From Clostridiales bacterium (lineage in GTDB: Bacteria; Bacillota; Desulfotomaculia; Desulfotomaculales; VENG01), in contig JADQBQ010000001.1 in NCBI GenBank assembly GCA_016278505.1, positions 186,001-250,000 on the forward strand: DNA of 64,000 bases, read 5' to 3'. The notes below the pieces were generated by a model. That model was not told the origin of the DNA, did no database searches, and saw nothing but the letters and a program-made list of their open reading frames with translations. Of this stretch, positions 7,867-64,000 are shown piece by piece; position 1 is the stretch's first letter, and each line of letters begins with the position of its first letter. The position numbers and the translations under genes are program-made.

Positions 7867-9270
7867 TTATGGCCATATTTTCCCGGGATTCATGATATTT
7901 TGTGGGTCCAGAGCATGTTTGATTTTTTGCATGGCCTGAAGTGCCGCTCCGTGCTCTATTGCAGCGTAGCCGGACCGGACCAGACCTACACCGTGTTCAC
8001 CCGTGGTAGAGCCGTTAAGTTCTATGGCCAGGCGATGTATGGCGTCTACCAGGGCATCTGCCCGCTCAACTTCTTCCGGTGAATCAATATCTATAACCGG
8101 TGCGGTATGAATATTACCGTCACCGATATGCCCGAAGGAGACCACGGTAATTCCATAATGGGCGGAAAGGCGGTGAACTTCTCGTAACGCTTGGGCTACT
8201 TTATCCAGTGGAATGCTGATATCTTCACCCGCAAAAATTCTGGTGCCGTCCGGGCGGATGCGGGCTGCGGCCGCGGCCACCAGACTTCTGCCCCGCCACA
8301 AATCGGCCATGCGCTGCGGGTCAGTAGACCATTCAGCTTTGCCGCCGGCCTTGACTGCAACATTGGAGATCTGATGGCCTTCCCATTCCACTGCTGGAGG
8401 GGAGCCGTCCACTTCAAAGAGCAATATAGCTTCCACTTCGGGTAAAGCAGTTTCCGGCCTATACATATTTACAGCCCGTATGGCCGTACCGTCAAGAATT
8501 TCTACCCCGGAGGGCATAATTCCGGCCCTGTATACTTCTTGTACCACCGGAGGAGCGTCTTCCAACCGGCGGAAGGTGGCCATTACCAGCCCTTTGGCTG
8601 CGGGCTTAGGCCAGAGCCTTAAGCGTGCCCGCGTAATTACACCGAGAGTTCCCTCTGAGCCCACGAAAAGTTTAGTTAAATTTAGTCCCGAGACATTCTT
8701 TATGGCCCTTGAATTCACTCCCCCGGTAGTTATTACCTCACCGCTGGCCAGAACAATTCTAAGTCCCAATACATAGTTTTCCGTAGTACCGTATTTGACT
8801 GCCCGTAAACCGCTGGAATTATTAGCAATCATGCCTCCCAGGGTGCACATCTGGCTGCTGCCCGGATCCGGAGGGAAGAAAAGGCCGTGATCAGACAGCT
8901 GCCGGTTAAAACGGGCATGGACTACTCCAGGGCGTACAAAGGCCTGCATGTTGGATGTATCAACTTCATCGACATTGTTCCAGGGGGAAAGATCCAGCAC
9001 TATCCCACCCCTGCAGGCCAGGCATCCGCCGGTTTCTCCGGTGCCCGCACCCCGAGGCACCACCGGTATTGACTGAGCTGATGCATATTTTAAAATGGCG
9101 GCTACTTCATGTGTTGCATGCGGAAAAACCACTGCGTCAGGGATAAAGGAATTTCTGGTTGCCAGAAATGAGCTGTCATAGGAATAAAGGCGGCGGTCAA
9201 TTTCTCCTGTCCGAATCTGGTTAGAATTGAGTATTGTTAACAGGTCTCTTTTTAAAGAATTGGAAGCCAT
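7867..9270 (-). CDS. glcD: GlcD-type FAD-linked 2-hydroxyacid dehydrogenase
   Basis: This 467-residue flavoprotein of the VAO/FAD-binding_4 family oxidises glycolate or D-lactate to the keto acid. The FAD-binding half contains VPRGAGTGETGG (about residue 75) and LGGMIANNSSGLRAVKYGTT. The C-terminal cap contains SFGHIGDGNIHTAP, with the conserved active-site histidines. GEHGVGL near the end is also typical of the family. ATG 9270 follows GAGGGATAAA. It is first in a two-gene unit with glcF. No transporter or regulator is next to it, so the exact substrate stays open. Confidence 0.92.
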   Translation of the reverse strand: MASNSLKRDLLTILNSNQIRTGEIDRRLYSYDSSFLATRNSFIPDAVVFPHATHEVAAILKYASAQSIPVVPRGAGTGETGGCLACRGGIVLDLSPWNNVDEVDTSNMQAFVRPGVVHARFNRQLSDHGLFFPPDPGSSQMCTLGGMIANNSSGLRAVKYGTTENYVLGLRIVLASGEVITTGGVNSRAIKNVSGLNLTKLFVGSEGTLGVITRARLRLWPKPAAKGLVMATFRRLEDAPPVVQEVYRAGIMPSGVEILDGTAIRAVNMYRPETALPEVEAILLFEVDGSPPAVEWEGHQISNVAVKAGGKAEWSTDPQRMADLWRGRSLVAAAAARIRPDGTRIFAGEDISIPLDKVAQALREVHRLSAHYGITVVSFGHIGDGNIHTAPVIDIDSPEEVERADALVDAIHRLAIELNGSTTGEHGVGLVRSGYAAIEHGAALQAMQKIKHALDPQNIMNPGKIWP

Positions 9271-49792: not shown

Positions 49793-50003
49793 GTGGTAGT
49801 CAAGGGGTGTAGACATGTTTGTAATATTGGTTTATGATGTAAATGTAAATGAGTGGTGAAGGTTTTAAAAAATCCGCTAGGAATGGTGGAATTCTGCAGG
49901 ATTAGATGACGGATAATACTAGGTCATTATATAAGTGTTCAGACCGCTTACAGTATTCAATCCGAAATAATGGGCATAAAGAAGGGCAAATATTTGCCTG
50001 TAA
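49793..50003 (+). pseudogene. Decayed copy of cas2 with the end of the cas1-cas2 junction
   Basis: From 49793 the sequence repeats the cas1-cas2 junction and cas2 of 63055-63338. The shared text includes TGGTAGTCAAGGGGTGT, the ATG with MFVILVYDVNV, and a 3' part around GTGTTCAG and AATAATGGGCATA up to the stop. A one-base loss gives a TGA after 14 codons, and about 70 bases in the middle are deleted. It marks an old duplication of cas2 plus leader in front of array 1. Confidence 0.85.
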
Positions 50004-50176
50004 AATTTTTCCGTCGACATCCAATAGTGCAAAAACCCCCGGGGGGCGACGGAAAAAACGGCATGCTTTTGATGTAATTTTAGCTAAAGATAATAAAAAT
50101 CATCAATATGTGCTTGTTAAATCCTTAATTTTGCTGATAAAATGGCACAAACAAAACAAAATATGCGAAAAATCGG
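50004..50176 (+). promoter_or_regulatory. CRISPR leader of array 1
   Basis: A 173-bp A/T-rich leader similar throughout to the array 2 leader. Shared blocks are CCGTCG...CGACGG flanking a stem of C and G runs, TATGTGCTTGTT, CCTAATTTT-like text and AAAATATGCGaAAAA just before the first repeat. It points into the array, so array 1 is transcribed and extended from this side. Confidence 0.8.
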
Positions 50177-52548
50177 GGCCGTAGCCTACCTATAAGGAAT
50201 TGAAACTTGTGGTAAAATACTACAAAGCAGGCTCGGGCTTTGGCCGTAGCCTACCTATAAGGAATTGAAACCTTATAGCTTCTTTACCTTGTAACTCTAC
50301 AGCATATAAGGCCGTAGCCTACCTATAAGGAATTGAAACATCCATCAGGCGTATTTGGTTTGAGTCCGTCTCTGTATGGCCGTAGCCTACCTATAAGGAA
50401 TTGAAACCCCGGACCACCTGTTCCTGGCAGCGATCTAACTCTTGGCCGTAGCCTACCTATAAGGAATTGAAACTTAACTGCATTATATTGATGCTTCATT
50501 AACCCCGTTTTGGCCGTAGCCTACCTATAAGGAATTGAAACTCTTTTCCAGTGCGGCTTTCACCACGTCCGGGGCCATGGCCGTAGCCTACCTATAAGGA
50601 ATTGAAACAACAAAATAGTTAAATTTGCCGAAGCAGGTATTCCCCTGGCCGTAGCCTACCTATAAGGAATTGAAACATTGACAGTAAAATAAAATTGGAT
50701 CTACGACTAATTAGGCCGTAGCCTACCTATAAGGAATTGAAACTCAGAGGGGGCCATACCCTTATAAACCACAAAACCGGCCGTAGCCTACCTATAAGGA
50801 ATTGAAACACTCATAATCTTTCAATTCACCTTCCGTCAATTCCGGCCGTAGCCTACCTATAAGGAATTGAAACATAAGGGCTTCTGATTCGGTTAGCTTG
50901 ACAGCGGTTTCCGGCCGTAGCCTACCTATAAGGAATTGAAACCCATTAAGGCCCATAGGTGAAGGGTTTGACTGTTTAGTGGCCGTAGCCTACCTATAAG
51001 GAATTGAAACTTTTCTTCTTATTTAAATAATTACTGGGAAATACCGGCCGTAGCCTACCTATAAGGAATTGAAACGAGGATCGGAACCGGAAAGCACTGG
51101 TACAGCTATATACGGCCGTAGCCTACCTATAAGGAATTGAAACTTGACCTTGAAAAATCGGCGTACTCTGTTATTTCCAGGCCGTAGCCTACCTATAAGG
51201 AATTGAAACCAGTTGGAAAATATCTGCACCTTTGCTGTATACCTGGCCGTAGCCTACCTATAAGGAATTGAAACACCCTTGAGCGTAAGCCCCCGGAGGG
51301 GCTGCCGGCATTGGCCGTAGCCTACCTATAAGGAATTGAAACTAAAGGCGTCGTACCCATGTTTTTTAATTTCATCTGCGGCCGTAGCCTACCTATAAGG
51401 AATTGAAACTCATTTTAGATATATTGGTAAGGTCAATAATCATAACAGGCCGTAGCCTACCTATAAGGAATTGAAACTATAATACTGCACCTGATTCTTC
51501 CCCATTACCTCAGGCCGTAGCCTACCTATAAGGAATTGAAACTATATAAGATACTGGCAAAGAGCAAGACCCCCAAGACGGCCGTAGCCTACCTATAAGG
51601 AATTGAAACACCCATAATCTCTAAACGCATTGTGCGGAATCCTTTTCGGCCGTAGCCTACCTATAAGGAATTGAAACTGGAAATGGATTTGTAATTCTGA
51701 AGTAAATTAATCTTAGGCCGTAGCCTACCTATAAGGAATTGAAACACCTCCATAAATTAAATATAAAAAACTCTTGCAAACAGGCCGTAGCCTACCTATA
51801 AGGAATTGAAACCTGCTAAACGCATAAGGGTCACTAAATACAGATAAAGGCCGTAGCCTACCTATAAGGAATTGAAACAATGTAATCATTGCAAAAAAGT
51901 TTATTGCATAGTTTAAGGCCGTAGCCTACCTATAAGGAATTGAAACCTGGTACGAGACCCTAACTGCTGGAAGCCTAGTTCCTGGCCGTAGCCTACCTAT
52001 AAGGAATTGAAACACGGTTTTCCAGGTAAAGGTTTCTTCTTTTACCTGGGGCCGTAGCCTACCTATAAGGAATTGAAACGGAGCGTACTCCGCGCTAACG
52101 TGTTTACCTATTTCAGGCCGTAGCCTACCTATAAGGAATTGAAACTCAAAGGGCGGCTTGTGATCTAATAGCATACCATGTGCGGCCGTAGCCTACCTAT
52201 AAGGAATTGAAACTCAACTATTGTTACAAAGCTGATATACTTCTCAACTACGGCCGTAGCCTACCTATAAGGAATTGAAACTCCGTTGCGGATAAAAAGT
52301 TTTGCAGATCCCATATAGGGCCGTAGCCTACCTATAAGGAATTGAAACTATATCGTTCTAGGTGTTGCCCTTGGTTTCATTGTGAGGCCGTAGCCTACCT
52401 ATAAGGAATTGAAACATGACCCCGGCACAGGGGGTGAGGACGAAAGTGGCGGGCCGTAGCCTACCTATAAGGAATTGAAACCGATAACCAGTTGGTGTTT
52501 CAAACCTCTTATTTTGGTGGCCGTAGCCTACCTATAAGGAATTGAAAC
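50177..52548 (+). CRISPR. CRISPR array 1: 36 repeats, 35 spacers
   Basis: Thirty-six 30-bp repeats that appear identical begin GGCCGTAGCC, contain TACCTATAAG and end GAATTGAAAC. They are separated by 35 spacers of 35-39 nt. The 3' end AATTGAAAC is the type I-B handle. The repeat differs from that of array 2 only at positions 2-4 (GCC against TTT). I saw no duplicated spacer by eye. No degenerate terminal repeat is visible; the last repeat at 52519-52548 is intact. Confidence 0.99.
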
Positions 52549-52610
52549 AAACCGTCGGTGCGAGGTCTTTACCTTGTCAGTTAGCTGTTATATTATGATA
52601 ATCTTAAAAG

Positions 52611-52870
52611 GGAGCAGATCTACAGGCTTTGGATCGGACATTACAAGCGTTTAAACAGAGTCACCAGCACATGGTTTTGGTGGTCGATGAATACGGCGGC
52701 ATCGCCGGCTTTGTTTGGGGATCAGCGAAGTGTTTGACTTGCCGATGGATAACGATGATGAATATGATACACTGTGAGTTATGTGTTGAGTAAGGTGGTT
52801 GACAGACCTAAAGTTGTCGATATTATAGAACTTCCTGGCTATCGGGGTGGAGAATGTAGGCGGTCTACGG
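52611..52870 (+). pseudogene. Remnant of a CorC/HlyC-type CBS protein
   Basis: GADLQALDRTLQAFKQSHQH then MVLVVDEYGGIAGFVW matches the CBS-domain end of CorC/HlyC membrane-associated proteins (HMxLVVDEYGGxxG). After a gap, DLPMDNDDEYDTL resembles the start of the transporter-associated domain, then stops. Frameshifts and a deletion separate the parts. No intact start or membrane domain remains. Confidence 0.65.
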
Positions 52871-53030
52871 ATTCACCGCTGCATCCGTTAAATTATTCAA
52901 GAGAAGGAGATATGTGAAGCCAACCGCTGGCCTGAGTTAACTAAAGTAAGCTAAAGGTTTAGGTTCAAAGTTAATATAACGGCCGAAGCCCGGTTTTGGT
53001 ATTAGCTAGATTATACATTTGTGTATGATA

Positions 53031-53126
53031 ATGGCAGAGGTCTCGCCTTTTGTATATATTACGGGTAAGCAAGAAACATCTTTATTTGACATGTTAGCGC
53101 AGCGTTTTGCAATAAGTAAAGACTGA
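53031..53126 (+). CDS. Possible 31-aa peptide next to a terminator
   Basis: ATG 53031 opens MAEVSPFVYITGKQETSLFD then MLAQRFAISKD. No good ribosome-binding site is seen. A terminator hairpin starts at its last codons. It is included because it lies between array 1 and the mini-CRISPR; it may be chance. Apart from it and the CorC remnant, 52549-53280 holds nothing I can support. Confidence 0.25.
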   Translation: MAEVSPFVYITGKQETSLFDMLAQRFAISKD

Positions 53127-53165
53127 CTGCTTTCCCATTTTGGAAAACATGTCAGTCCTTTTCTT
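53118..53165 (+). terminator. Terminator in the array 1 to cas interval
   Basis: GACTGAC-TG-CTTTCC and GGAAAAC-ATG-TCAGTC form a long interrupted stem followed by CTTTTCTTCTTTT. What it ends is unclear; the array 1 transcript or a small RNA is possible. Confidence 0.65.
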
Positions 53166-53281
53166 CTTTTCATATTCAGAAAGATTATGCACAGACCGGA
53201 ACACTATGGTATCCGGAATGGGGGTAACAAGTTACGGCTCAGGAAGATTAGTTAAGATAAGGTGCCGTCTCCTGTCTTTTA

Positions 53282-53359
53282 AAGAAAACTCCTTGTAGGT
53301 AGGCTAATTGCAAGTAAATGAAAATGCGTTTAAATTCCTTTTAGGTAACGCTACAAAAC
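53282..53359 (-). ncRNA. Degenerate mini-CRISPR (CreA/CreR-like guide RNA candidate)
   Basis: Read on the minus strand, 53359-53328 is a degenerate copy of the array 2 repeat (GTTTTGTAGC, ACCTAAAAGG, ATTTAAAC) with two single-base insertions and a few substitutions. Then come 16 bases, GCATTTTCATTTACTT. A second degraded repeat follows from 53311 to about 53282 (TAGCCTACCTACAAGGAG, 16 of 18 bases as in the true repeat up to the AGGA block). The handle ATTTAAAC differs from ATTGAAAC at one base. A promoter directly precedes it. Layout pseudo-repeat, short pseudo-spacer, pseudo-repeat is that of CreA or CreR crRNA-like RNAs. Processing by Cas6 is inferred. Confidence 0.75.
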
Positions 53360-53361
53360 TT

Positions 53362-53390
53362 ATTGTAGCAATGAAGGTTAGTGCTGTCAA
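53362..53390 (-). promoter_or_regulatory. Promoter of the mini-CRISPR
   Basis: On the minus strand TTGACA (53390-53385), 17 bp, TACAAT (53367-53362). Predicted +1 near 53355, inside the first pseudo-repeat. One mismatch from consensus. Confidence 0.8.
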
Positions 53391-53405
53391 ATAGAAAAAA
53401 ACTAG

Positions 53406-53434
53406 TTGACGAGGTAATATTTTCTATGTATGGC
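53406..53434 (+). promoter_or_regulatory. Promoter of the DUF3800 gene
   Basis: TTGACG (53406-53411), 17 bp, TATGGC (53429-53434). It is divergent from the mini-CRISPR promoter; the two -35 boxes are 15 bp apart. Confidence 0.55.
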
Positions 53435-53451
53435 AAAGCAAAGAATATTAA

Positions 53452-53467
53452 AAGTAAATGATAATGC
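53452..53467 (-). promoter_or_regulatory. Target site of the mini-CRISPR guide
   Basis: GCATTATCATTTACTT (minus strand) matches the pseudo-spacer at 15 of 16 bases, with the mismatch at position 6. The 3 bases 5' of it are TTA, compatible with known clostridial I-B PAMs. It lies in the 5' leader, next to the AAAGGGAG ribosome-binding site of the DUF3800 gene. Confidence 0.75.
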
Positions 53468-53484
53468 TAAAGGGAGTTGAAAAG

Positions 53485-54315
53485 TTGTTTGTTTACTTAG
53501 ATGAAAGCGGGCGATTAGATGCGGAGGATACGGCTAAAAGACCTACAATAGCAGGTGTGATTATTCCGGAAAAAAGTTTAAATGATGCTACAAGCACATT
53601 GCTTAATCTGAAAAGGGAATTATGTCCTCCTTTTATAAATCCAGAAATGTATGAATTAAAAGCAAATAAGATACTGCGGCCAAGCGCTGGAGGATGGAAA
53701 ATCGAGTTAGCAGAGAGGTTCTTTTGTGATTACTTTGTATCATTGGAAGATGTGCGGGTAGTTGCAGTGGTATGTCGCCGGCCTTCAAAACTATTAAAAT
53801 CCAACAGTGATATTTTACCACTGCATCATATCTGGCTTTTAACTAAAATTTTTAATTATATGCAAGAGAATAAGCCAGATGAGTTTGCGTCTTTTGTATA
53901 TGATTCGCAAGGAAATGATGCAGATGAGAGATTATCCAGAGAGTTTACGAGTTACTTATACCGGCATCCTCAGGGACAGGAGTTTTTAAGAAGTATAACT
54001 CCCACACCTTTATTCGTTAATTCTTCACTGGTGCCGGGGATAGAGCTGGCAGATATGATAGCAGGTTGTTTACGCCATCAAGCTGATGCTTATGATGAAC
54101 AAAACACTTCAAGTCCTAAAAAGGCTTACAGTAATTGGCACCTTAGCCGTTACACGCGTTATAAGCGAATTATAGAACAAAAACAGGCAGAATTGTCACC
54201 TAATCAATATTCTATTCAATATGCCAGTAAGGATGCGATGGAAAGAGTGTTGGCACATGCTGAGGGAAAACCACTGGATAATGCTGATGTAGAACCTGAA
54301 GACGTTAAAAAATAA
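53485..54315 (+). CDS. DUF3800 domain protein
   Basis: This 276-residue protein starts at TTG 53485, 8 bases after AAAGGGAG; in-frame ATGs at 53458 and 53464 have no ribosome-binding site. The product opens LFVYLDESGRLDAED and contains LVPGIELADMIAGCLRH, both DUF3800 hallmarks; the family has an RNase H-like fold with acidic residues, and a nuclease role is suspected. It has no membrane segment. It stands alone between the mini-CRISPR and the cas operon. Its leader carries the guide target, so Cascade may keep it off. Whether it is toxic, a nuclease, or defence-linked is inference. Confidence 0.8.
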   Translation: MFVYLDESGRLDAEDTAKRPTIAGVIIPEKSLNDATSTLLNLKRELCPPFINPEMYELKANKILRPSAGGWKIELAERFFCDYFVSLEDVRVVAVVCRRPSKLLKSNSDILPLHHIWLLTKIFNYMQENKPDEFASFVYDSQGNDADERLSREFTSYLYRHPQGQEFLRSITPTPLFVNSSLVPGIELADMIAGCLRHQADAYDEQNTSSPKKAYSNWHLSRYTRYKRIIEQKQAELSPNQYSIQYASKDAMERVLAHAEGKPLDNADVEPEDVKK

Positions 54316-54471
54316 ACAAACCGCAAAGCGAGAAATGCCTTCCCACAGCGGCTTGCAAGATTATTATAAGCTTTTGTAGATTCGTTGTCAATAAAATATA
54401 AAGATATTATATTGTTGCGCTTAAAAAAACAATAAATATTTTTGATAAACATTCCTATCACGGACACAATG

Positions 54472-54501
54472 TTGACCTGTCATTTTGTTAAACTTTATAA
54501 A
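54472..54501 (+). promoter_or_regulatory. Promoter of the cas operon
   Basis: TTGACC (54472-54477) and TATAAA (54496-54501), 18-bp spacer, or TTATAA with 17. It lies about 30 bp before the cas6 start. No pseudo-spacer match was found here. Confidence 0.6.
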
Positions 54502-54529
54502 AAGGTCGTAAATTGGAAGGAGGGATAGC

Positions 54530-55294
54530 TTGCATCTGTGTTTGTCTCTGCGGGAAAAGAACGGCGAACTTGTTTTGCCCATTCACTATAACCGCCTTAT
54601 TCAGGGCGCCATATATAACAATATATCTACTGAACTGGCAGCATTTCTCCATGACCGGGGGTATGTGTACAATGGCCGCAGTTTTAAATTATTTTCATTT
54701 TCAAGAATATTGGGAAATTACAAATTAGACAGGGTAAATAAACAAATATCTTTCAGTGGAGATGTAAAACTTTACATCTCTTCACCGGTGCAGGAATTCT
54801 GTACTTCACTCATGGGTTGTCTGTTGGGGGAAGGTATTCACCTGGGCGGGACTTCGGTGGAAGTTGTGGGGATTAAGGCTGAAAAACCGGTGGTAAGCGG
54901 GGAGGTTATCGAGGTTGAACTTCTTTCCCCTGTGGTGATATACAGTACTTTTTTGAAACCGGAAGGGGGGAAGTATACATGTTATTTCCATCCAGGGGAG
55001 AAGGAGTTTGTACATCTATTGGAGACCAATCTGAGGAAAAAATATAGGGCTTTTTACGGGACGGAACTCCCGGAGGGCGATTTCGGTGTAGAAACCTTGA
55101 ACCGGCCGTGCCTTAATATCACTATGTACAAGCATACAGTAATAAAAGGGTACAGCTGCCGCATTAAGCTGGGTGGCCCCCCGGAGTTACTGCAGGTGGC
55201 GGTAGACGCCGGACTTGGAGGAAAAAATTCCCAAGGGTTCGGTTATATCCGGTTGTGTGGTAACGGTAGTGGCGAAAGGAGGGGGCAAAGTTGA
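54530..55294 (+). CDS. cas6: Cas6, crRNA-processing endoribonuclease
   Basis: Cas6 (254 aa) cuts the precursor crRNA within each repeat, leaving the 8-nt 5' handle. Two ferredoxin-like folds are expected; the C-terminal glycine-rich loop GLGGKNSQGFGYIRL (~residue 228) is diagnostic. A His in IHYNRLIQGAIYNNI near residue 19 is typical of the N-terminal part. TTG 54530 follows AAGGAGGG. It is the first gene of an eight-gene cas operon and overlaps cas8b by 4 bp. Confidence 0.92.
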   Translation: MHLCLSLREKNGELVLPIHYNRLIQGAIYNNISTELAAFLHDRGYVYNGRSFKLFSFSRILGNYKLDRVNKQISFSGDVKLYISSPVQEFCTSLMGCLLGEGIHLGGTSVEVVGIKAEKPVVSGEVIEVELLSPVVIYSTFLKPEGGKYTCYFHPGEKEFVHLLETNLRKKYRAFYGTELPEGDFGVETLNRPCLNITMYKHTVIKGYSCRIKLGGPPELLQVAVDAGLGGKNSQGFGYIRLCGNGSGERRGQS

Positions 55295-57399
55295 TTATTG
55301 AAAGTTTGATCAGGCTCGGGCGCCCCATGGTGGAAGGGGGACTTCCACCTGCAGCAATACTGCGGCAGGTATCGGATGTTGCCGAAGTTGGCGCCAAGAG
55401 CTTTATGGCCCGGGTTTTTGTGGTTGAAGTGGACAGGCAAGGAGATAAGAGTAATATAGCGGTGTTGCCCGTGCAACAGTGGGGAGATTACCATGACCAG
55501 AGTTCGAAGGGCAAAAAGCAGGTTTTTCAGCAGGATGTGGGGAGGGCGGTGGGGGCGCCCTTCATCATACCCAGGGGAAACCCGTTGAAACCTCAAGGAC
55601 GGTATGGCGTACCTTCTTATTTGGTGTATGATAAGCAATTCCATAGTTTTTTTGAGGATGCAGGTGAATTGGAAAAGTTTATCTCCGGCAGGTTGAAAAA
55701 GTCTGTGGGTATTGACTTATCCAGCCAAGAAGTAGAACAAATTGCTCTACAGCTGCATCAGGCGGTTAATAACATGGATAAAGGATCCGGGGAAAAAATG
55801 CTGGGCCTGATTGTGCTGACGCTGCCGGGGGAAAATGAACCTTATCAGTTAAGGGAAGAGATTCCGGTTGGCAACGATTATCTGGCTGATCTAGGTCCCA
55901 GTGTGCTGCATCAAGGAAAACATTTAGTGGCGGATCTGAACCGGGTAAAAGAAAGGTTTTGGGAGGCTAAGTTGGCCGAAGGGGCTGAAATGGGGGAGCG
56001 GGAAGGGCCGGGTGCCGTTTGTTATTTTTGCGGAGAGGAGGGGCGTGTTGTTTCTTCCTATTGTAAGGCCTGGTCATGGTTTACCACCACCTGGAGCTGT
56101 CCCCTGCCGTCTGCTCTAAAAACCGGTGAGTTGGTGGAAAGCATAGCCCTATGCCCTGGTTGTTACAATGCTTTGACTTATGGGGCCAATCTGTTTAATA
56201 AGTTAACAAAGCAGCTCGATAACTGGCTGGTTAAGGAGATATTCTCGCCCTCGGCTACTGCTGCGGGCAAAGAATTAACCAGGAAAGGTAGCACCCCGGA
56301 CGCTGTATACGGTTGTGCCTATGTTTTGCCGGTGCTGGACACCTTCTTGGAAGACGAAGATGATCGAAACGATTTTGTTGCCGGGGTAATATCCATGCTG
56401 GGTAACGGTTCCGGGCGAAATAAGGTAGACATGCACCTGCGGGAGATTACAGGGTTTGAAACCATCCTGCCTGCAGAAATGGCGGGTGATAACTACCGGA
56501 TGACTATAATATATTATTCCGGTGATTCGAGTCGTGGAGATATTCACCTGCGGGCCACCATAGAGGATGTGCTACCCTCAGTGGCCAGGGAACTAACAAA
56601 AATTACAGGTATTACGCGTCAATACGCCCTGCAGGTGGCCGAGAGCCTTTACAACGAACTGTCGGACAAGTACAAATACTTTTTGAGCAGTCGTTATGGG
56701 TCGCTACCCTATTTATTAACCACCGCTTATGGTGCTCCTTATACCTGGAGAACGATAGATGTCGTTCTCCACCGTGGCGAACTATCTAGGCGAGCATTCC
56801 TTTTTAATGTAGCGGATAGGATGAATGAGCTGGCCCGTAAGCTCCCCGACAGCTTTCAAGAGCTTTGCGGAGAGGTCATTTTCTATCTTACCTTTAACCA
56901 GCTTTTACTTCAATATGATAAAGCCATAGCAATAAAAACCGGAAACGGGGGGTGTAATTTGATGAGAGACTGGCGGGAATTATGCCGTTTGGTGGCGGAA
57001 GCACCGGCTGATGATTTGGATCTTAAGGATCCGGAGGAACTGGGTTTTGCTGCTGGTTGTCTAGTTCGGTTCTTTGATTGGAAATATCAGAAAAAAAGTA
57101 AGGAAAAAGGACAAGAAAAAAAGTTTTTGCAACACCGGGTTATGATTTTTGGCAGTAGTTTAACACCAGAATTTATATGGAAAAGGGCTCTCTCCCGTAT
57201 TGACGAGTATGCCTTGAAATTAAATATTGAACTCTCAAATAATTTTCAGCAGCAGGTTGCAGTGGTGCTCATGGAATACAGCCGGTTGAGGGATGAGGTG
57301 AACAGGGAAAGGGATGCCTTTATGGCGGCCTTTTGGGCCGGTTATGCTCTAGCTTGGACGGGAAAAGAAAAAAATGGTAAAGGTAAAAATAATTCTTAA
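55291..57399 (+). CDS. cas8b: Cas8b large subunit of type I-B Cascade (TM1802-like)
   Basis: This 702-residue protein sits in the large-subunit position and has the TM1802-family look: LIRLGRPMVEGGLPPAAILRQ at the N-terminus, then a zinc-binding region with CYFCGEEGRVVSSYCKA (~residue 243) and LCPGCYNAL (~288). In I-B systems Cas8b recognises the PAM and stabilises the R-loop. GTG-like/TTG start overlaps the end of cas6. The C-terminal ~120 residues are helical, as expected for a fused small-subunit-like part. Confidence 0.85.
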   Translation: MIIESLIRLGRPMVEGGLPPAAILRQVSDVAEVGAKSFMARVFVVEVDRQGDKSNIAVLPVQQWGDYHDQSSKGKKQVFQQDVGRAVGAPFIIPRGNPLKPQGRYGVPSYLVYDKQFHSFFEDAGELEKFISGRLKKSVGIDLSSQEVEQIALQLHQAVNNMDKGSGEKMLGLIVLTLPGENEPYQLREEIPVGNDYLADLGPSVLHQGKHLVADLNRVKERFWEAKLAEGAEMGEREGPGAVCYFCGEEGRVVSSYCKAWSWFTTTWSCPLPSALKTGELVESIALCPGCYNALTYGANLFNKLTKQLDNWLVKEIFSPSATAAGKELTRKGSTPDAVYGCAYVLPVLDTFLEDEDDRNDFVAGVISMLGNGSGRNKVDMHLREITGFETILPAEMAGDNYRMTIIYYSGDSSRGDIHLRATIEDVLPSVARELTKITGITRQYALQVAESLYNELSDKYKYFLSSRYGSLPYLLTTAYGAPYTWRTIDVVLHRGELSRRAFLFNVADRMNELARKLPDSFQELCGEVIFYLTFNQLLLQYDKAIAIKTGNGGCNLMRDWRELCRLVAEAPADDLDLKDPEELGFAAGCLVRFFDWKYQKKSKEKGQEKKFLQHRVMIFGSSLTPEFIWKRALSRIDEYALKLNIELSNNFQQQVAVVLMEYSRLRDEVNRERDAFMAAFWAGYALAWTGKEKNGKGKNNS

Positions 57400-57413
57400 A
57401 GGAGGCTTTTCCC

Positions 57414-58376
57414 TTGAGTATTAGTGGTGGAGAGGTTTTGTTCGTTAAGTGTGTAAAGGATGGTATCCCTAACAGGGATCCACTTAATGAAAGCGATGCC
57501 AGGAGAATGTTTGGAGAGGACGATGGGCGTATTTCCCTTTCTGATGTGAGTATAAAGCGTGATATGAGGGATTTTGTGCTGGCAAAGTGCCCAAATGGTG
57601 GAAAGGATAAACGTGATTTCATCTTCTGTCGCCAGGAGCGAACGGAAGATGGAAAACTGCTGGGCCGGCAAAATTTGGCTGAAAAGATACTGGAAGAGCT
57701 GAATATAAAATCATCAAAGAACAAGCGTGATAATCTATTGAAAGCTGCCTTTGATATGCGTGTTTTCGGCGCAGTATACAGTGTAGGGAAAGAGAGTTTC
57801 AACCAAACGGGCCCGGTGCAGTTCGGTTGGGCCCACTCGCTACACCCGGCGGAAACAAAATATGTGCAAGGCACTGTGGTCATGCCCAGTAAGGATGTAA
57901 AGGTTAACGAGCAGGGAGAGGGCCAGGGGAGTCAGCAGGGTACTATCTGGACTACCTATACATTACCCTTTGCGGTTTTCGCTATGCCGGCGGTGATAAA
58001 TGCCAATATTGCCCGGGATACGGGCATGGATGAAAACGATTTGGAACTGTTGTTGGAAGGGTTGTGGAAGGGGACTCAGTACCGTCAGGCACGCGGGCGC
58101 GGCATCCAGCAGCCTCTTATGATGCTGCATGTGGAATACAAGGATCCCTTTTTCCGTATTGGCTACCTGGAAGACTTTATTGAACTTAAACCCGAGCGGG
58201 AGGTTTGGCAGGGAGGAAATCCTCCAACTTCACTGCCGGAAGTGGAACTAAATGTTTCCGCTCTGGAAAAACTTTTATCTGAAAATGAAAATAGAATTGC
58301 CCGCATCCGTTGCTGGGTTCACCCGGGGCTGAGGATAACAGGGAATCTCCCCGGGGAAAAGCAAGAGCTGGCATAG
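57414..58376 (+). CDS. cas7: Cas7 (Csh2) backbone subunit of Cascade
   Basis: Cas7 (320 aa) polymerises along the crRNA spacer. GEVLFVKCVKDGIPNRDPLN opens the RRM fold; DMRVFGAVYSVGKESFNQTGPVQFGWAHSLHP is the family core, and ARDTGMDENDLELLLEGLWKGTQ follows. AAGGAGG precedes the TTG start at 57414. The Cas7 family sets every sixth guide base out of pairing, which matters for the mini-CRISPR match. Confidence 0.92.
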   Translation: MSISGGEVLFVKCVKDGIPNRDPLNESDARRMFGEDDGRISLSDVSIKRDMRDFVLAKCPNGGKDKRDFIFCRQERTEDGKLLGRQNLAEKILEELNIKSSKNKRDNLLKAAFDMRVFGAVYSVGKESFNQTGPVQFGWAHSLHPAETKYVQGTVVMPSKDVKVNEQGEGQGSQQGTIWTTYTLPFAVFAMPAVINANIARDTGMDENDLELLLEGLWKGTQYRQARGRGIQQPLMMLHVEYKDPFFRIGYLEDFIELKPEREVWQGGNPPTSLPEVELNVSALEKLLSENENRIARIRCWVHPGLRITGNLPGEKQELA

Positions 58377-58415
58377 TGGTAGGAAAGGTTTGGGGAGGTG
58401 AGGTAACTGAAACTA

Positions 58416-59120
58416 TTGGTATTTGACCTGCAGGGGAAGATGGCACATTTTCGCCGCCCCGATACTACAGGAACGCACGCCACTTACCCCTTTATAACCA
58501 GGACTGTTTTGCAGGGGCTAATTGCTTCCATACTGGGAATGGAACGTCTGACAGGGAATAACTGGGTGGGGATCCAACTGCTTTCCCCGGTGCATACCAG
58601 TTCTCAGGAGATGTCCATGCTGGGTAAAGGCTGGCTGGGTGAAGCCAGGAGCACCTTTAACCGGCCCACTTCGGTGGAATTAGTGATTTCACCCCATTAT
58701 CGTGTTTACTATACCGGTACGCACCTGGACAGGCTCGGGGAAATGTTGCGCGAAGGAAAGAGTCATTATCATACTTACCTGGGAAGTGCATACTGCCTGG
58801 TCTTTCCCCGGTTTACAGGATGTTATGATGTTCCGGAATTAAATCCCGGAGCCGGTATGGAACTGGTATGTAAAACCGTTGTCCCCAGCCATGTTATAGA
58901 AGGTTTGATTCCCGTAGATGGCGCACAATACGGCCGGGTGGGTGGAATGCATTACGAATACCTGGGAGAAAGGCGTTTCAGTGGTACAGTTAATGTCATT
59001 TACGAGACTGTAGGGCAACCTGTTGTCTTTCGGGTTCGGAACAATGAGGATGAAAAATTGAGGGATAAACCAGTTAAATTCTTTTCCCGGCGGGAAAAAG
59101 AGGTGGTAGTCCTGTGGTAG
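58416..59120 (+). CDS. cas5: Cas5, handle-binding subunit of Cascade
   Basis: Cas5 (about 234 aa, I-B type) caps the 5' handle of the cr[21 protein letters not shown] at the N-terminus and [17 protein letters not shown] follow the Cas5h pattern. The reading frame begins with TTG 58416, but CTG 58407 (giving [10 protein letters not shown]) is closer to the usual Cas5 N-terminus and to the GGAGGTGAGG site. The end overlaps cas3. Confidence 0.88.
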
Positions 59121-61522
59121 TTCCAATAAAGGATTGTATTGCCAGGCCTGATGAGGAAAACGGAATGCAACATTTGCTGGTTGATCATCTGGAAGCGGTG
59201 GCTTTCAGCTGGGGAAAGACCGAGGAAGAGAAAGAAGATGCGTTGAAGTTCCTGGCCGGGCTTTTGCATGATGCCGGTAAGGCTCATGCAGGTTGGCAGG
59301 ATTATATCAATACACCGGAGGAGAAGCGCCGGAAAGGGCCGGCACATTCTCCTGCCGGTGCCACCCTTTTTTGTTATTGTGCCGTATGTTTAATAGAAAA
59401 GTGGCAATTAAAGGGAGTGGAGTTAAGGCAATTAAACTCTCTCGTCATGCGGTTGGCCAGGGATATTTATGACCACCATGGTCCCCTGGAGGATATCGGA
59501 CCCGAAGTGCCCTGGGTTAACACTTTACATCCAGAATTCTTTTGCGAAGTTGACCTGCCTGGTTTAATTGAACTCGTCAATCGTCATTTTCCTGAACTCA
59601 AACTTGGTCAAAATGGATTTGCAGACTGGCTGAATGAGTTTCCCCTCACCTGGGAGAAGTGGTATAACACTCTCCCAGGGTTTATAAAGCGCAAGTTGAG
59701 CGAGAAAGGGAATAAATACAGGAATGCGGCTGGGGCGGCATTGCGTTCGCTTTCTTCCGGTTTGATCGCGGGGGATCGTTACCATGCTGCGGATCTCAAT
59801 TCTCTTAGTCTATCCCCTGCAGCGGCACAAAGTGCTCTTGACCGCTTGATTTCTCTGTGCAGGGCCAAGGGTGAGGAAGTGCTTCACCTGGGAACTGCTT
59901 CACCGGAAATGGTAAGACTTAGGCAGTGGCTACAGGACTCCGTTTTTAACAACTACGTACGTAGTAAACAGGAGAGGTTTCTAAGCTTGTTGCTTCCCAC
60001 TGGCTTGGGCAAGACATTAAATTCTCTCAGGCTAGCAATGTCCTCTTGTGCCGTGGGAGAGCGGCAAAAAATAATCTATGTGGCCCCGTATCTCTCCATA
60101 TTGTCCCAGGCCACAGCTGAAATAAGGTCTTATACAGGGCTGGAAGTGGTTCAGCACCATCATTTATCGGTAATGGATGAGAAGCAGTCCGGTGAAGAAA
60201 TGGATGAAACTTTTCTATTGGCGCTGGAGGCCTGGCAAGCAGCTCCCATCATTACCACCACGTTCAACCAGCTTTTCCGGGCCCTGTTCCCCAGGCGTGC
60301 TCAACAAACAATGCGCCTCAAAGGCATGGAAAAGGCATTTGTTATTGTTGACGAACCGCAAATAATTGACGGGGCTGTCTGGAATTTATTTTTACAAATG
60401 CTGGACGCAGCGGCCAGGGAATATGACCTACAGGTATTGTTCACCACGGCCACCCTGCCGCCGTCTGATATGGTATTCCCCGGGGGGTTTGTTCCGCTGG
60501 CGCCTGATTTTAAAACTCCTGACCGGTATACAGTTGCGGTGCTTGAGGAACCTCTGGACCAGTACGGGGTCGCTGAAACGGTTTTGAATGAGATAGAAAC
60601 GGTGAGTTCGGTGGGTGTGGTCATGAATACCATTCGTGACGCAGCGACGGTGTATGAAATTATTAAAGATAAAATTCGGGCGGGAGTAGACTGCTATAAT
60701 CTGTCCGGGTGTATGACCCCTCTGCATAAAGCCGGAAGGATAAGGGAAATCGCGCTCAGATTGAAGTCCGGTGAACCAACTGTGGTGGTTTGTACTCAAA
60801 TTCTAGAGGCAGGGGTGGATCTAAGCTTCCGGTTGTTAATGAGAGCTTTACCTGTGATGCCTTCCATTGCCCAGGCTGCGGGAAGGGCAAACAGGCACGG
60901 TGAAGGGACAAAGGCACGGGTCATAGTCTTTCCTTTCCGCAGGGACGGGGAAACGGATACCAGGATACACGTATACCGTTCCATGATATCCCGGGAGGAA
61001 ACCAACGGCTGTATAGCACGCTACCCGTCATGGGAAGAACCGCTCACAGCCGGAGTGGTGCGCGAATTTTATGATCGCACTTTCGCCCGGAATGCTTGTA
61101 CTGCGGCCCTGGATAAGTTGACAGACGCTGCTTGCGGTCAGTGGTCCGCACTTTCAGGTATTAGCCCTTTCGGATCCGATGCACCCCGCATCAATCTTTT
61201 TGTACCGTGGGGTGAAGACTTACTAGAGGATAAAGCTGCAAAGCTTTTACACAGGTATGCACCTGAAGGGGTAGAACAACTTTACGAAAATTATGTTGAA
61301 GGCGAGCACAGGCGGCTGTCGTTTGTTGACCGGAAACGCTTTATGGCATTGCTCCAGTTTTTCTTGGTTCCTGTGAGTGATAAGCAGGCCTGCAAATTAG
61401 CTGCTTCCCTTAGTGATATTGCCATTCCTCGCTTGGCTAACCCCGGTAACTACTCGGAGGAAACCGGGCTGGCCCATTATAGCGATAAGGGAGAAGATGA
61501 TTTTGATGCTTGTTGCTACTAA
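59114..61522 (+). CDS. cas3: Cas3 helicase-nuclease
   Basis: Cas3 (802 aa) degrades target DNA after Cascade binding. The N-terminal HD nuclease shows [20 protein letters not shown] (HD at ~53) and [10 protein letters not shown]. The SF2 helicase part has Walker [10 protein letters not shown] (~293), motif [10 protein letters not shown] (DEPQ where DExH is usual, ~412), motif [22 protein letters not shown] and motif [14 protein letters not shown] (~588). GTG 59114 overlaps the cas5 stop. Confidence 0.95.
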
Positions 61523-61546
61523 TTTTTGTTCTGGGAGGCAAAAACC

Positions 61547-62053
61547 GTGCGGGATAATGAGATAAGGGTAGGCGGTACCCTCATCTGGTACTACTACGTT
61601 TGTAAGCGGGAAGTATGGCTTATGGGGCGGCAAATCACTGCTGACCAGGACGATACCAATGTGGTCCTGGGTCGGTTTTTTGCCGAGCAGTCCTACGGCA
61701 GAGAGAAAAAAGAAATAACTTTTGGCCATATGAAGTTTGATGTAGTGAGAAAAGACAGGCATGGACTGGTAGTGGCCGAAGTAAAGAAAAGCAGTAAGCA
61801 TATCAAAAGTGCAAAAATGCAGCTGGCCTTTTACCTGTGGGAATTATTTCAAAAAGGCATAAAGGCAAGGGGCGAACTCCTTTTTCCAAAGGAGAAAAGG
61901 CGGGAGCTGGTAGAGTTAACTGATGAGTTAATAGATAACTTATTAGAGGCCAAAAGGGATATTTTGAGAATCATTTATGATTCTATTCCCCCTGAAGCTG
62001 TAAAGAAACAGATATGCCGAAATTGTGCCTATGCTGAGTTTTGCTGGTCGTAA
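61547..62053 (+). CDS. cas4: Cas4, RecB-like nuclease of spacer acquisition
   Basis: Cas4 (168 aa) trims prespacers and helps select PAMs with Cas1-Cas2. The Fe-S cluster cysteines are YYVCKREVW near the N-terminus and CRNCAYAEFCW at the C-terminus. The RecB motif VVAEVKKSSKHIKSAKMQLAFYL is intact. GTG 61547 follows GGGAGG; an in-frame TTG at 61526 overlaps it. Confidence 0.93.
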   Translation: MRDNEIRVGGTLIWYYYVCKREVWLMGRQITADQDDTNVVLGRFFAEQSYGREKKEITFGHMKFDVVRKDRHGLVVAEVKKSSKHIKSAKMQLAFYLWELFQKGIKARGELLFPKEKRRELVELTDELIDNLLEAKRDILRIIYDSIPPEAVKKQICRNCAYAEFCWS

Positions 62054-62066
62054 AGGGGGGACTTTT

Positions 62067-63059
62067 TTGAAAAAGACCATTTACATTTTTAATGACGGAC
62101 AACTAAAGCGAAAAGGTAATACGCTGTATTTTGAATCGGAAGAACAAAAAAAGTATCTTCCAGTTGAAGATGTGGGAGAATTAATGGTTTTTGGGGAGGT
62201 CTCCCTGAATAAAAAATTCCTGGAGTTTGCCTCCCAGAAAGAAATTATCATTCATTATTTCAGTTATTACGGTTACTACATGGGTAGTTTTTATCCTCGT
62301 GAGCACCTGAATTCAGGGCATATGATTCTGAAGCAGGCTGAGCATTACCTGGATGAAGAAGAGCGTATACGCATTGCCAGGCAGTTCGTCAGCGGGGCAG
62401 CCAGGAACATCAGGCAAGTATTGCGGTATTATAACAATCGTGTGGGAGGAATATCAGAAACCCTAAGCAGGGTAGACGAAGTGATCATGTCTCTGGATGA
62501 CTGCAGTGATATCAACCGCCTGATGGCAGCCGAAGGCAACATCAGGGACAGGTACTACAGGGTTTTCGACAGGATTACCCGTAACCCAGATTTCCCATTT
62601 GAGGAACGGTCCAGGCGCCCACCCAGAAACCACTTAAATACCTTGATAAGTTTTGGTAACAGCATCATGTATACCATAGCGTTGAGTGAGATCTACAAGA
62701 CGCACCTGGATCCACGCATAGGTTATCTTCACGCCACAAACTTCCGCAGATTCTCTCTAAACCTAGACTTGGCGGAAATCTTCAAGCCTATCATAGTAGA
62801 CAGGGTTATATTCAGCATATTGGGCAAAAAAATGGTAACCGCCAATGACTTTGCAGAAGAAGGCGAAGGGATTATGATGAAAGACCGGGCCCGCAAAACA
62901 TTCGTGCAGGAGCTTGACGCAAAATTAAAAACTACCATTAAACATAAAGGGATAGGGAGGCCAGTCTCCTACAGGAGGATCATGCGCCTGGAACTATATA
63001 AACTGGAAAAACACCTGATTGGGGAAAGTTTTTATGAGCCATTCATTGCCCAATGGTAG
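62067..63059 (+). CDS. cas1: Cas1 integrase
   Basis: Cas1 (330 aa, I-B type) integrates new spacers at the leader. IYIFNDGQLKRKGNTLYF opens the N-terminal beta domain. The catalytic part contains AEGNIRDRYYRVFD (active Glu), HLNTLISFGNSIMYT, IGYLHATNFRRFSLNLDLAEIFKP (His and Asp) and GKKMVTANDFA. TTG 62067 follows GGGGGGA; the frame extends upstream into cas4 but is not needed. Confidence 0.95.
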   Translation: MKKTIYIFNDGQLKRKGNTLYFESEEQKKYLPVEDVGELMVFGEVSLNKKFLEFASQKEIIIHYFSYYGYYMGSFYPREHLNSGHMILKQAEHYLDEEERIRIARQFVSGAARNIRQVLRYYNNRVGGISETLSRVDEVIMSLDDCSDINRLMAAEGNIRDRYYRVFDRITRNPDFPFEERSRRPPRNHLNTLISFGNSIMYTIALSEIYKTHLDPRIGYLHATNFRRFSLNLDLAEIFKPIIVDRVIFSILGKKMVTANDFAEEGEGIMMKDRARKTFVQELDAKLKTTIKHKGIGRPVSYRRIMRLELYKLEKHLIGESFYEPFIAQW

Positions 63060-63074
63060 TCAAGGGGTGTGGAC

Positions 63075-63338
63075 ATGTTTGTGATATTGGTTTATGATGT
63101 AAATGTAAAACGAGTGGTAAAGGTTTTAAAAACAGCCAGGAAATACCTGCACTGGGTACAAAATTCAGTACTTGAAGGTGAAATATCTAAGGCTAATTTC
63201 CATAAACTAAAGGCGGAACTCCGCAGTATTATCAATGACGAAGAAGATTCCGTGATTATATATGTGTTCAGATCCTTGCAGTATTCAAGTCGCGAAATAA
63301 TGGGCATAGAGAAAGGTGGTCAGGATATTTTCCTGTAA
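63075..63338 (+). CDS. cas2: Cas2, adaptation subunit
   Basis: Cas2 (87 aa) forms the core of the Cas1-Cas2 integrase. MFVILVYDVNVKRVVKVLKTARKYL, with the conserved Asp, NSVLEGEIS and SVIIYVFRSLQY are typical. ATG 63075 follows AAGGGGTG. A decayed copy of this gene with its leader lies 13 kb upstream. Confidence 0.95.
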   Translation: MFVILVYDVNVKRVVKVLKTARKYLHWVQNSVLEGEISKANFHKLKAELRSIINDEEDSVIIYVFRSLQYSSREIMGIEKGGQDIFL

Positions 63339-63512
63339 AAATTTTCCGTCGCCCCCCAATGATGTAAAAAACCCTGGGGGTCGACGGAACAAACGGTTTC
63401 GTTTTGGATAAATTCCGGTCAAAGTTCGTAAAAAACTTCACTATGTGCTTGTTTGATACCTAATTTTATTGAGAAATGACAGAAATCAATCAAAATATGC
63501 GCAAAAAATCTG
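63339..63512 (+). promoter_or_regulatory. CRISPR leader of array 2
   Basis: A 174-bp A/T-rich leader directly after cas2. CCGTCG-CCCCC and GGGGGTCGACGG can form a stem, and the element is shared with the array 1 leader, as is AAAATATGCGCAAAAAA at its array end. Confidence 0.85.
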
Positions 63513-64000
63513 GTTTGTAGCCTACCTATAAGGAATTGAAACCAAAGAAAAGCCTAGTTCTAAAAATGGTCGCACTTTATGTTTGTAGCCTACCTATAAG
63601 GAATTGAAACGAAAAGTTCCCAACCTGTCCTACACTGATAAATATATGTTTGTAGCCTACCTATAAGGAATTGAAACGCCTTTGCCATAGCATTAGCTGC
63701 CGCGCCAAAGATTGTTTGTAGCCTACCTATAAGGAATTGAAACCCAGGTCTATATTAATCACCCTTTCTTATTGGTTTCGGTTTGTAGCCTACCTATAAG
63801 GAATTGAAACGCGTAATTTTGTTAGAGTGTATCATTTTGCTATTGAGTTTGTAGCCTACCTATAAGGAATTGAAACTATAGAAACTCTTGCATTTCATAT
63901 GCTTCGCACTTTGGTTTGTAGCCTACCTATAAGGAATTGAAACCTAACACCATCACCAAAACCTAGAAAGTTGCCATCATGTTTGTAGCCTACCTATAAG
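63513..64000 (+). CRISPR. CRISPR array 2 (continues beyond the window)
   Basis: Eight 30-bp repeats beginning GTTTGTAGCC and ending GAATTGAAAC, the last cut off by the window end after 20 bases, with seven spacers of 36-38 nt. It differs from array 1 at repeat positions 2-4. It follows cas2 and the leader, so it is the primary array of this locus. Confidence 0.99.

Follow-up and report, generated by a model that had tools for sequence, protein, structure and literature searches.

A degenerate mini-CRISPR in a clostridial type I-B locus as a probable CreA-type guide for Cascade repression of a DUF3800 gene

A degenerate mini-CRISPR situated between a CRISPR array and the type I-B cas operon of a clostridial genome is likely to encode a CreA-type guide, with the help of which Cascade would repress the neighbouring gene for a DUF3800 effector. 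This protein would be freed once Cascade is lost or inhibited, in a manner resembling CrePA. The pairing of such a guide with DUF3800 is drawn from one genome, the guide device itself from ten loci.

Results

Guide element

The features of the window, i.e. the whole stretch of 64 kb that was analysed, are compiled in Table 1. Two decayed copies of the CRISPR repeat, designated here as psiR1 and psiR2, stand in tandem on the minus strand, and an earlier note on this DNA had reported them as lying 16 bases apart and preceded by a promoter with 17-bp spacing; its coordinates proved correct to the base. By local alignment of the array repeat to the 64-kb window, psiR1 (score 42) and psiR2 (score 32) are the two best repeat-like sites outside the arrays, which confirms that the pseudo-repeats are real, and the next-best site (score 30) is solitary. 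Since both copies are arranged in tandem on the same strand, a chance origin is hardly likely. Degenerate repeats outside an array, the first of them with the 8-nt handle, are typical of CreA/CreR-type elements.

The guide promoter, placed by the same note at the first copy, abuts psiR1. Its boxes are TTGACA (53390-53385) and TACAAT (53367-53362, with TG preceding it), and dinucleotide shuffling of the intergenic region yields a match of 11/12 in 1% of cases; only eight such sites exist in the whole window. The Rfam search of positions 52560-54560 returned no known RNA family. As to other mini-CRISPRs, no ectopic repeat with three or fewer mismatches was identified in the genome, in a search that would equally miss the pseudo-repeats of the guide because of their degeneracy. 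Positions 52640-52790, situated between array 1 and the guide, contain what we take, by eye, to be the decayed remains of a gene with a CBS domain (CorC-like; VVDEYGGIAGFV).

Table 1 Features of the window and their coordinates
Feature	Position	Strand	Basis
CRISPR array 1, 36 repeats, repeat GGCCGTAGCCTACCTATAAGGAATTGAAAC	50177..52548	+	
Pseudo-repeat 2 (psiR2) GCAATTAGCCTACCTACAAGGAGTTTTCTT	53282..53311	-	5' part of repeat kept, handle lost
Pseudo-spacer (guide) GCATTTTCATTTACTT, 16 nt	53312..53327	-	between psiR1 and psiR2
psiR1 8-nt handle ATTTAAAC	53335-53328	-	3' end of psiR1
Pseudo-repeat 1 (psiR1) GTTTTGTAGCGTTACCTAAAAGGAATTTAAAC	53328..53359	-	local alignment to array repeat; 8-nt handle kept
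Guide promoter TTGACA-17-TACAAT with TG extension	53362..53390	-	11/12 consensus
Candidate weak DUF3800 promoter TTGACG-17-TATGGC	53406..53434	+	8/12 consensus
Predicted target (protospacer) GCATTATCATTTACTT	53452..53467	-	15/16 match to pseudo-spacer, mismatch at position 6
PAM TTA	53468..53470	-	adjoins target; TTA measured in related-type I-B system (PMC10551041)
Ribosome-binding site of DUF3800 AAAGGGAG	53469..53476	+	sequence
DUF3800 gene	53485..54315	+	PF12686, E 2.4e-9; PDC-M04A match
Perfect promoter and hairpin, possible ~55-nt antisense RNA at DUF3800 3' end	54304..54391	-	promoter 12/12
Type I-B cas operon cas6-cas8b-cas7-cas5-cas3-cas4-cas1-cas2	54530..63338	+	complete system
CRISPR array 2, at least 15 repeats, running beyond the window, repeat GTTTGTAGCCTACCTATAAGGAATTGAAAC	63513..64000	+	

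Arrays and cas operon

All Cascade genes (cas6, cas8b, cas7 and cas5) are present in the window, and the spacers of its arrays measure 35-39 nt. The DNA before array 1 (49794-50172) is a diverged copy of positions 63054-63506 (75-96% in pieces), which contain the cas2 gene and the leader before array 2, so that array 1 seems to be derived from a duplication of the cas2-leader end. In search of an independent PAM, array spacers were compared with phage sequences, with no match, and three of them with viral contigs, with no exact match; in consequence of this lack of protospacers, the PAM of the window's own array is not derivable. A single plasmid match was rejected as a protospacer, being spread over the array and resembling another array. 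No convincing self-targeting array spacers were found within the window.

Target site and DUF3800 gene

The pseudo-spacer recurs, in 15 of its 16 positions, on the same strand and 125 bp away. Both this target and the DUF3800 gene were absent from the earlier note and were found in the present analysis. On the protospacer strand the site follows TTTA, and with respect to the plus-strand DUF3800 gene it lies directly before the ribosome-binding site. It represents the best match of the pseudo-spacer in the 3.92-Mb genome, where the degenerate motif GCATTWTCATTTACTT has exactly two perfect matches, the pseudo-spacer and the target. CreA/CreR-type guides are further characterised by a seed match (positions 1-5 and 7-11) with a PAM-flanked site where a nearby gene begins. 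The finding of this target at the 5' end of the adjoining gene thus supports the earlier proposal that a clostridial I-B locus carries a CreA/CreR-like guide, as does the same architecture in nine I-B relatives (see below).

To our knowledge, DUF3800 proteins are widespread and carry no assigned function. The ORF in the window is intact and encodes 276 aa, with TTG at 53485 as the probable start (MFVYLDESGR), although it is readable from ATG 53458. Pfam detected the DUF3800 domain only and no KilA-N, and the protein additionally matches the candidate phage-defence model PDC-M04A. Acidic residues D6, E57, D140 and D190 are invariant among the four homologues aligned. An AlphaFold model computed with four sequences was too poor for use (mean pLDDT 46.7); an RNase H nuclease fold has been predicted for DUF3800 by AlphaFold2, and proteins of this family are present in type V-A2 and VI-F loci (PMC10910872, PMC12669027). 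Close relatives were found neither in genome_contigs and viral_contigs nor in plasmids. Four distant relatives (27-29%) occur in the class, with no CRISPR repeat nearby. DUF3800 is present in 14 of the 42 genomes with this Cas8b, at the cas8b locus only in the genome of the window, and no orthologue of the DUF3800-guide pair was found among the relatives searched.

The 3' end of the DUF3800 gene carries another candidate control element. A minus-strand promoter TTGACA-17-TATAAT in the gap before cas6 points back at DUF3800 (12/12, reached in 0.2% of shuffles), and a hairpin at 54355-54304, within about 50 nt of it, has a folding energy of -21 kcal/mol (z -4.5) and is accompanied by a U tract. 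A resulting antisense RNA of about 55 nt, overlapping the 3' end of DUF3800, would perhaps provide a second layer of control; as a conserved RNA, the hairpin gave chance-level matches only elsewhere.

Mini-CRISPRs in related type I-B loci

Relatives of Cas8b were gathered from the class, the phylum and genome_contigs, and their cas loci were scanned for a repeat-like sequence that ends in a handle and precedes a spacer with a second occurrence of its positions 1-5 and 7-11 no more than 900 nt away; the PAM played no part in this search. This PAM-free scan returned the window and eight further distinct loci. One more (L077) was found by plain identity and was recovered again once one seed mismatch was allowed. 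Altogether, we have identified ten mini-CRISPRs, in the window and in nine I-B relatives, with spacers of 16-29 nt, each of which matches its own TTA-flanked promoter-proximal site. The handle of psiR1 keeps six to eight of its eight bases in all ten; psiR2, found in nine elements (all but L078), lacks the handle in each of them and retains the repeat's 5' part. This is the pattern of the haloarchaeal CreA RNAs, for which small-RNA sequencing established an 8-nt 5' and a 22-nt 3' handle (PMC8501985). In the window the -10 box stands at the start of psiR1, and the distance is similar in L076, L077, L092 and L142; a predicted promoter has its -10 box 8-19 nt before the target in L076, L077, L092, L142 and L153. 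As far as sequence goes, the parts of the design, with the halves relevant to Cas6 retained in both pseudo-repeats, the match, the PAM, the mismatch rule described below and the recurrence with different spacers in relatives are established.

The gene behind the target varies. It is cas8b in five relatives (L069, L070, L071, L078 and L092) and cas6 in three (L076, L077 and L153), so that CreR-like autoregulation is indicated in eight of nine relatives. In two genomes the target belongs to another gene standing before cas6, namely DUF3800 in the window and, in genome G409 (L142, 10188-11738), a CRISPR-associated gene of the APE2256 family (PF09651). The guide of L142 covers the perfect 12/12 promoter of the latter gene just after its -10 box.

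Several further loci deserve mention. In L069 (10395-11397, G008) a gene of the AbiEii toxin family (PF08843, E 5.7e-25) is inserted between cas6 and cas8b, and the guide element ends 29 nt before it; the target of this guide precedes cas8b. Ectopic repeats stand before cas6 or cas8b in L064 (8771-8800, G019) and L068 (382-439, G097), with no seed-matched target detectable in the locus DNA examined. In L063 (G029), which is one of the two closest Cas8b relatives, the guide element is replaced by a coding sequence that runs almost directly into cas6 at 8634 and which, by eye, we presume to be WYL-type regulator-like.

PAM and mismatch pattern

TTA stands immediately 5' of the target in all ten elements, against a background frequency of 2-3%. 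Control spacers in the PAM-free scan produced four matches when reversed and 14 when complemented, none of them with TTA. In the relaxed scan, which allowed one seed mismatch and considered only targets with one of five T-rich PAMs, there were 25 control matches; these were of lower repeat-likeness or low complexity and rarely had TTA.

Position 6 of type I Cascade guides is unpaired, and a pattern of mismatches at positions 6 and 12 corresponds to the pairing rule of this complex. Mismatches occur at position 6 in nine and at position 12 in five of the ten elements, together 14 of the 16 mismatches. Within the six elements from the plain-identity scan, one of these two positions is involved in 9/10 mismatches (binomial P ~7e-8, a value made somewhat optimistic by the kinship of L070 and L071). 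The latter two share an identical spacer, and their targets differ precisely at positions 6 and 12 and nowhere else. The same two positions were dispensable in CreA mutants of H. hubeiense (PMC8501985). In the I-B system of Parageobacillus (P. thermoglucosidasius), TTA is the measured PAM, and guides whose spacers do not exceed 26 nt cause transcriptional repression but no cutting, with Cas3 present (PMC10551041). The 16-nt guide of the window falls within this limit, and repression rather than self-cleavage is therefore predicted for it.

Discussion

Proposed mechanism

Our preferred reading is that the minimal degenerate CRISPR constitutes a CreA-type gene, which would be transcribed from its own promoter. 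Cas6 would cut the transcript at both pseudo-repeats and release a crRNA-like RNA composed of the 8-nt 5' handle, the 16-nt guide and a 3' handle. Loaded with it, Cascade would occupy the target with its TTA, immediately ahead of the ribosome-binding site of the divergently oriented DUF3800 gene, and block transcription of this gene, the guide being presumably too short to trigger cutting by Cas3. We infer these four steps (transcription, Cas6 processing, Cascade loading and repression) from known systems. A working Cascade would thus keep DUF3800 silent, and the loss of Cascade, its diversion by crRNAs or its blockage by an anti-CRISPR would set DUF3800 free.

What the released protein might do is less certain: it is probably a nuclease effector that would arrest or kill the cell, that is, a nuclease toxin freed upon loss or inhibition of Cascade. 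Alternatively, the same conditions may release DUF3800 as a nuclease with an accessory role. A dedicated guide aimed at the start of DUF3800 leads to the prediction that the protein is harmful or an effector, switched on when Cascade is inactivated. Taken to its full extent, the proposal would be that of a new class of CRISPR-guarded suicide modules, in which a dedicated 16-nt guide and Cascade hold down a DUF3800 RNase H-fold nuclease toxin until anti-CRISPRs or Cascade loss release it, and in which such I-B Bacillota re-aim a common CreR-type guide at the effector gene heading the locus (DUF3800 here, the APE2256-family gene in G409). We put this wider version forward tentatively and with some doubt.

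Alternative explanations

The main competing view is that DUF3800 heads the transcription unit of the cas genes as an accessory nuclease instead of a toxin, with Cascade exerting feedback on its own operon in the manner of CreR. The aim of the guides at cas6 or cas8b in eight of nine relatives is in line with it, as is L092, which has the same divergent layout of guide, target and gene with cas8b in the place of DUF3800. Moreover, DUF3800 and cas6 are co-directional and separated by 214 nt, in which no clear terminator was found, so that repression could extend into the cas operon. However, the target lies upstream of DUF3800, 1.06 kb before cas6, and the gap contains the perfect minus-strand promoter with its hairpin. 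It also contains two candidate promoters for cas6 itself (54385 and 54472, both 10/12, although such matches are common by chance). Given these candidate promoters of cas6, which stands 214 nt behind DUF3800, it is simplest to take DUF3800 itself as the controlled gene, and we regard feedback on the whole operon as rather unlikely.

Far less probable is that the element consists of relics of a lost mini-array and that its match to the DUF3800 leader arose by chance or by a small local duplication. The repeats are degenerate indeed, but a match of 15/16 was reached in none of 4000 shuffles of the local 340 bp and is unique in the genome, a duplication would not place the sole mismatch on position 6 and TTA on the right side, and the same design recurs in nine relatives. 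The guide corresponds to the strand opposite to the DUF3800 mRNA and is consequently complementary to the leader beside the ribosome-binding site, as would suit a short antisense RNA pairing with this mRNA rather than guiding Cascade to DNA. In six of the nine relatives (L070, L071, L076, L077, L078 and L153), however, the guide matches the coding strand, which makes pairing with mRNA impossible, and TTA together with the position 6/12 pattern are features of DNA-targeting Cascade; ordinary antisense control therefore appears very improbable to us.

Comparison with known systems

CreA/CreR-type guides in I-B systems of Bacillota can be searched for by a simple rule, namely a handle followed by a spacer of 16-29 nt, a TTA-flanked target near a promoter, and most mismatches at positions 6 and 12. 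The rule recovers elements that are missed by array finders, and it indicates that one and the same device is aimed at cas genes in part of the genomes and at adjacent effector genes in the rest.

CreR of types I and V-A is likewise a mini-CRISPR with a partial match to a promoter-proximal, PAM-flanked site adjoining cas genes, a description that applies to eight of the nine relatives; the element of the window differs in that its target is upstream of DUF3800 and not of a cas gene. With CreTA (type VIII; I-B in haloarchaea, I-F in Acinetobacter) it shares two degenerate repeats, the 5' handle kept in psiR1, and seed pairing at positions 1-5 and 7-11 with position 6 free (PMC8501985). CreTA, however, comprises a small toxic RNA or minimal ORF, while the target in the window precedes an ORF for 276 aa. 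Judged by its predicted target, the element is hence not a textbook CreTA with an RNA toxin and probably not a textbook CreR at a cas promoter, being aimed at the gene of the DUF3800 protein. The scaRNA/Cas9 system of Francisella novicida also employs an RNA with a degenerate repeat and short complementarity to turn a CRISPR effector into a repressor of transcription (PMC9458426), but it is of type II, based on Cas9, and controls a lipoprotein operon.

The toxin CreP of CrePA is typically a KilA-N protein acting on FtsZ. The protein of the window differs from it, being a predicted RNase H-fold DUF3800 with a presumed toxicity. In CrePA, a crRNA-like RNA, CreA, guides the CRISPR effector to the promoter region of the gene for the protein toxin CreP, which is thereby repressed, with release expected upon inhibition of the effector (PMC12737573), as we propose for DUF3800. 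The target in the window similarly occupies the promoter region of a protein-coding gene next to CRISPR-cas, the DUF3800 promoter being a weak prediction. We found no DUF3800 gene under a CreA/CreR-type guide in the literature, which for CreR and CrePA was covered through reviews. Overall, CreA, CreR, CreTA and CrePA are already known, and what is new here is DUF3800 as the controlled protein of the same guide device.
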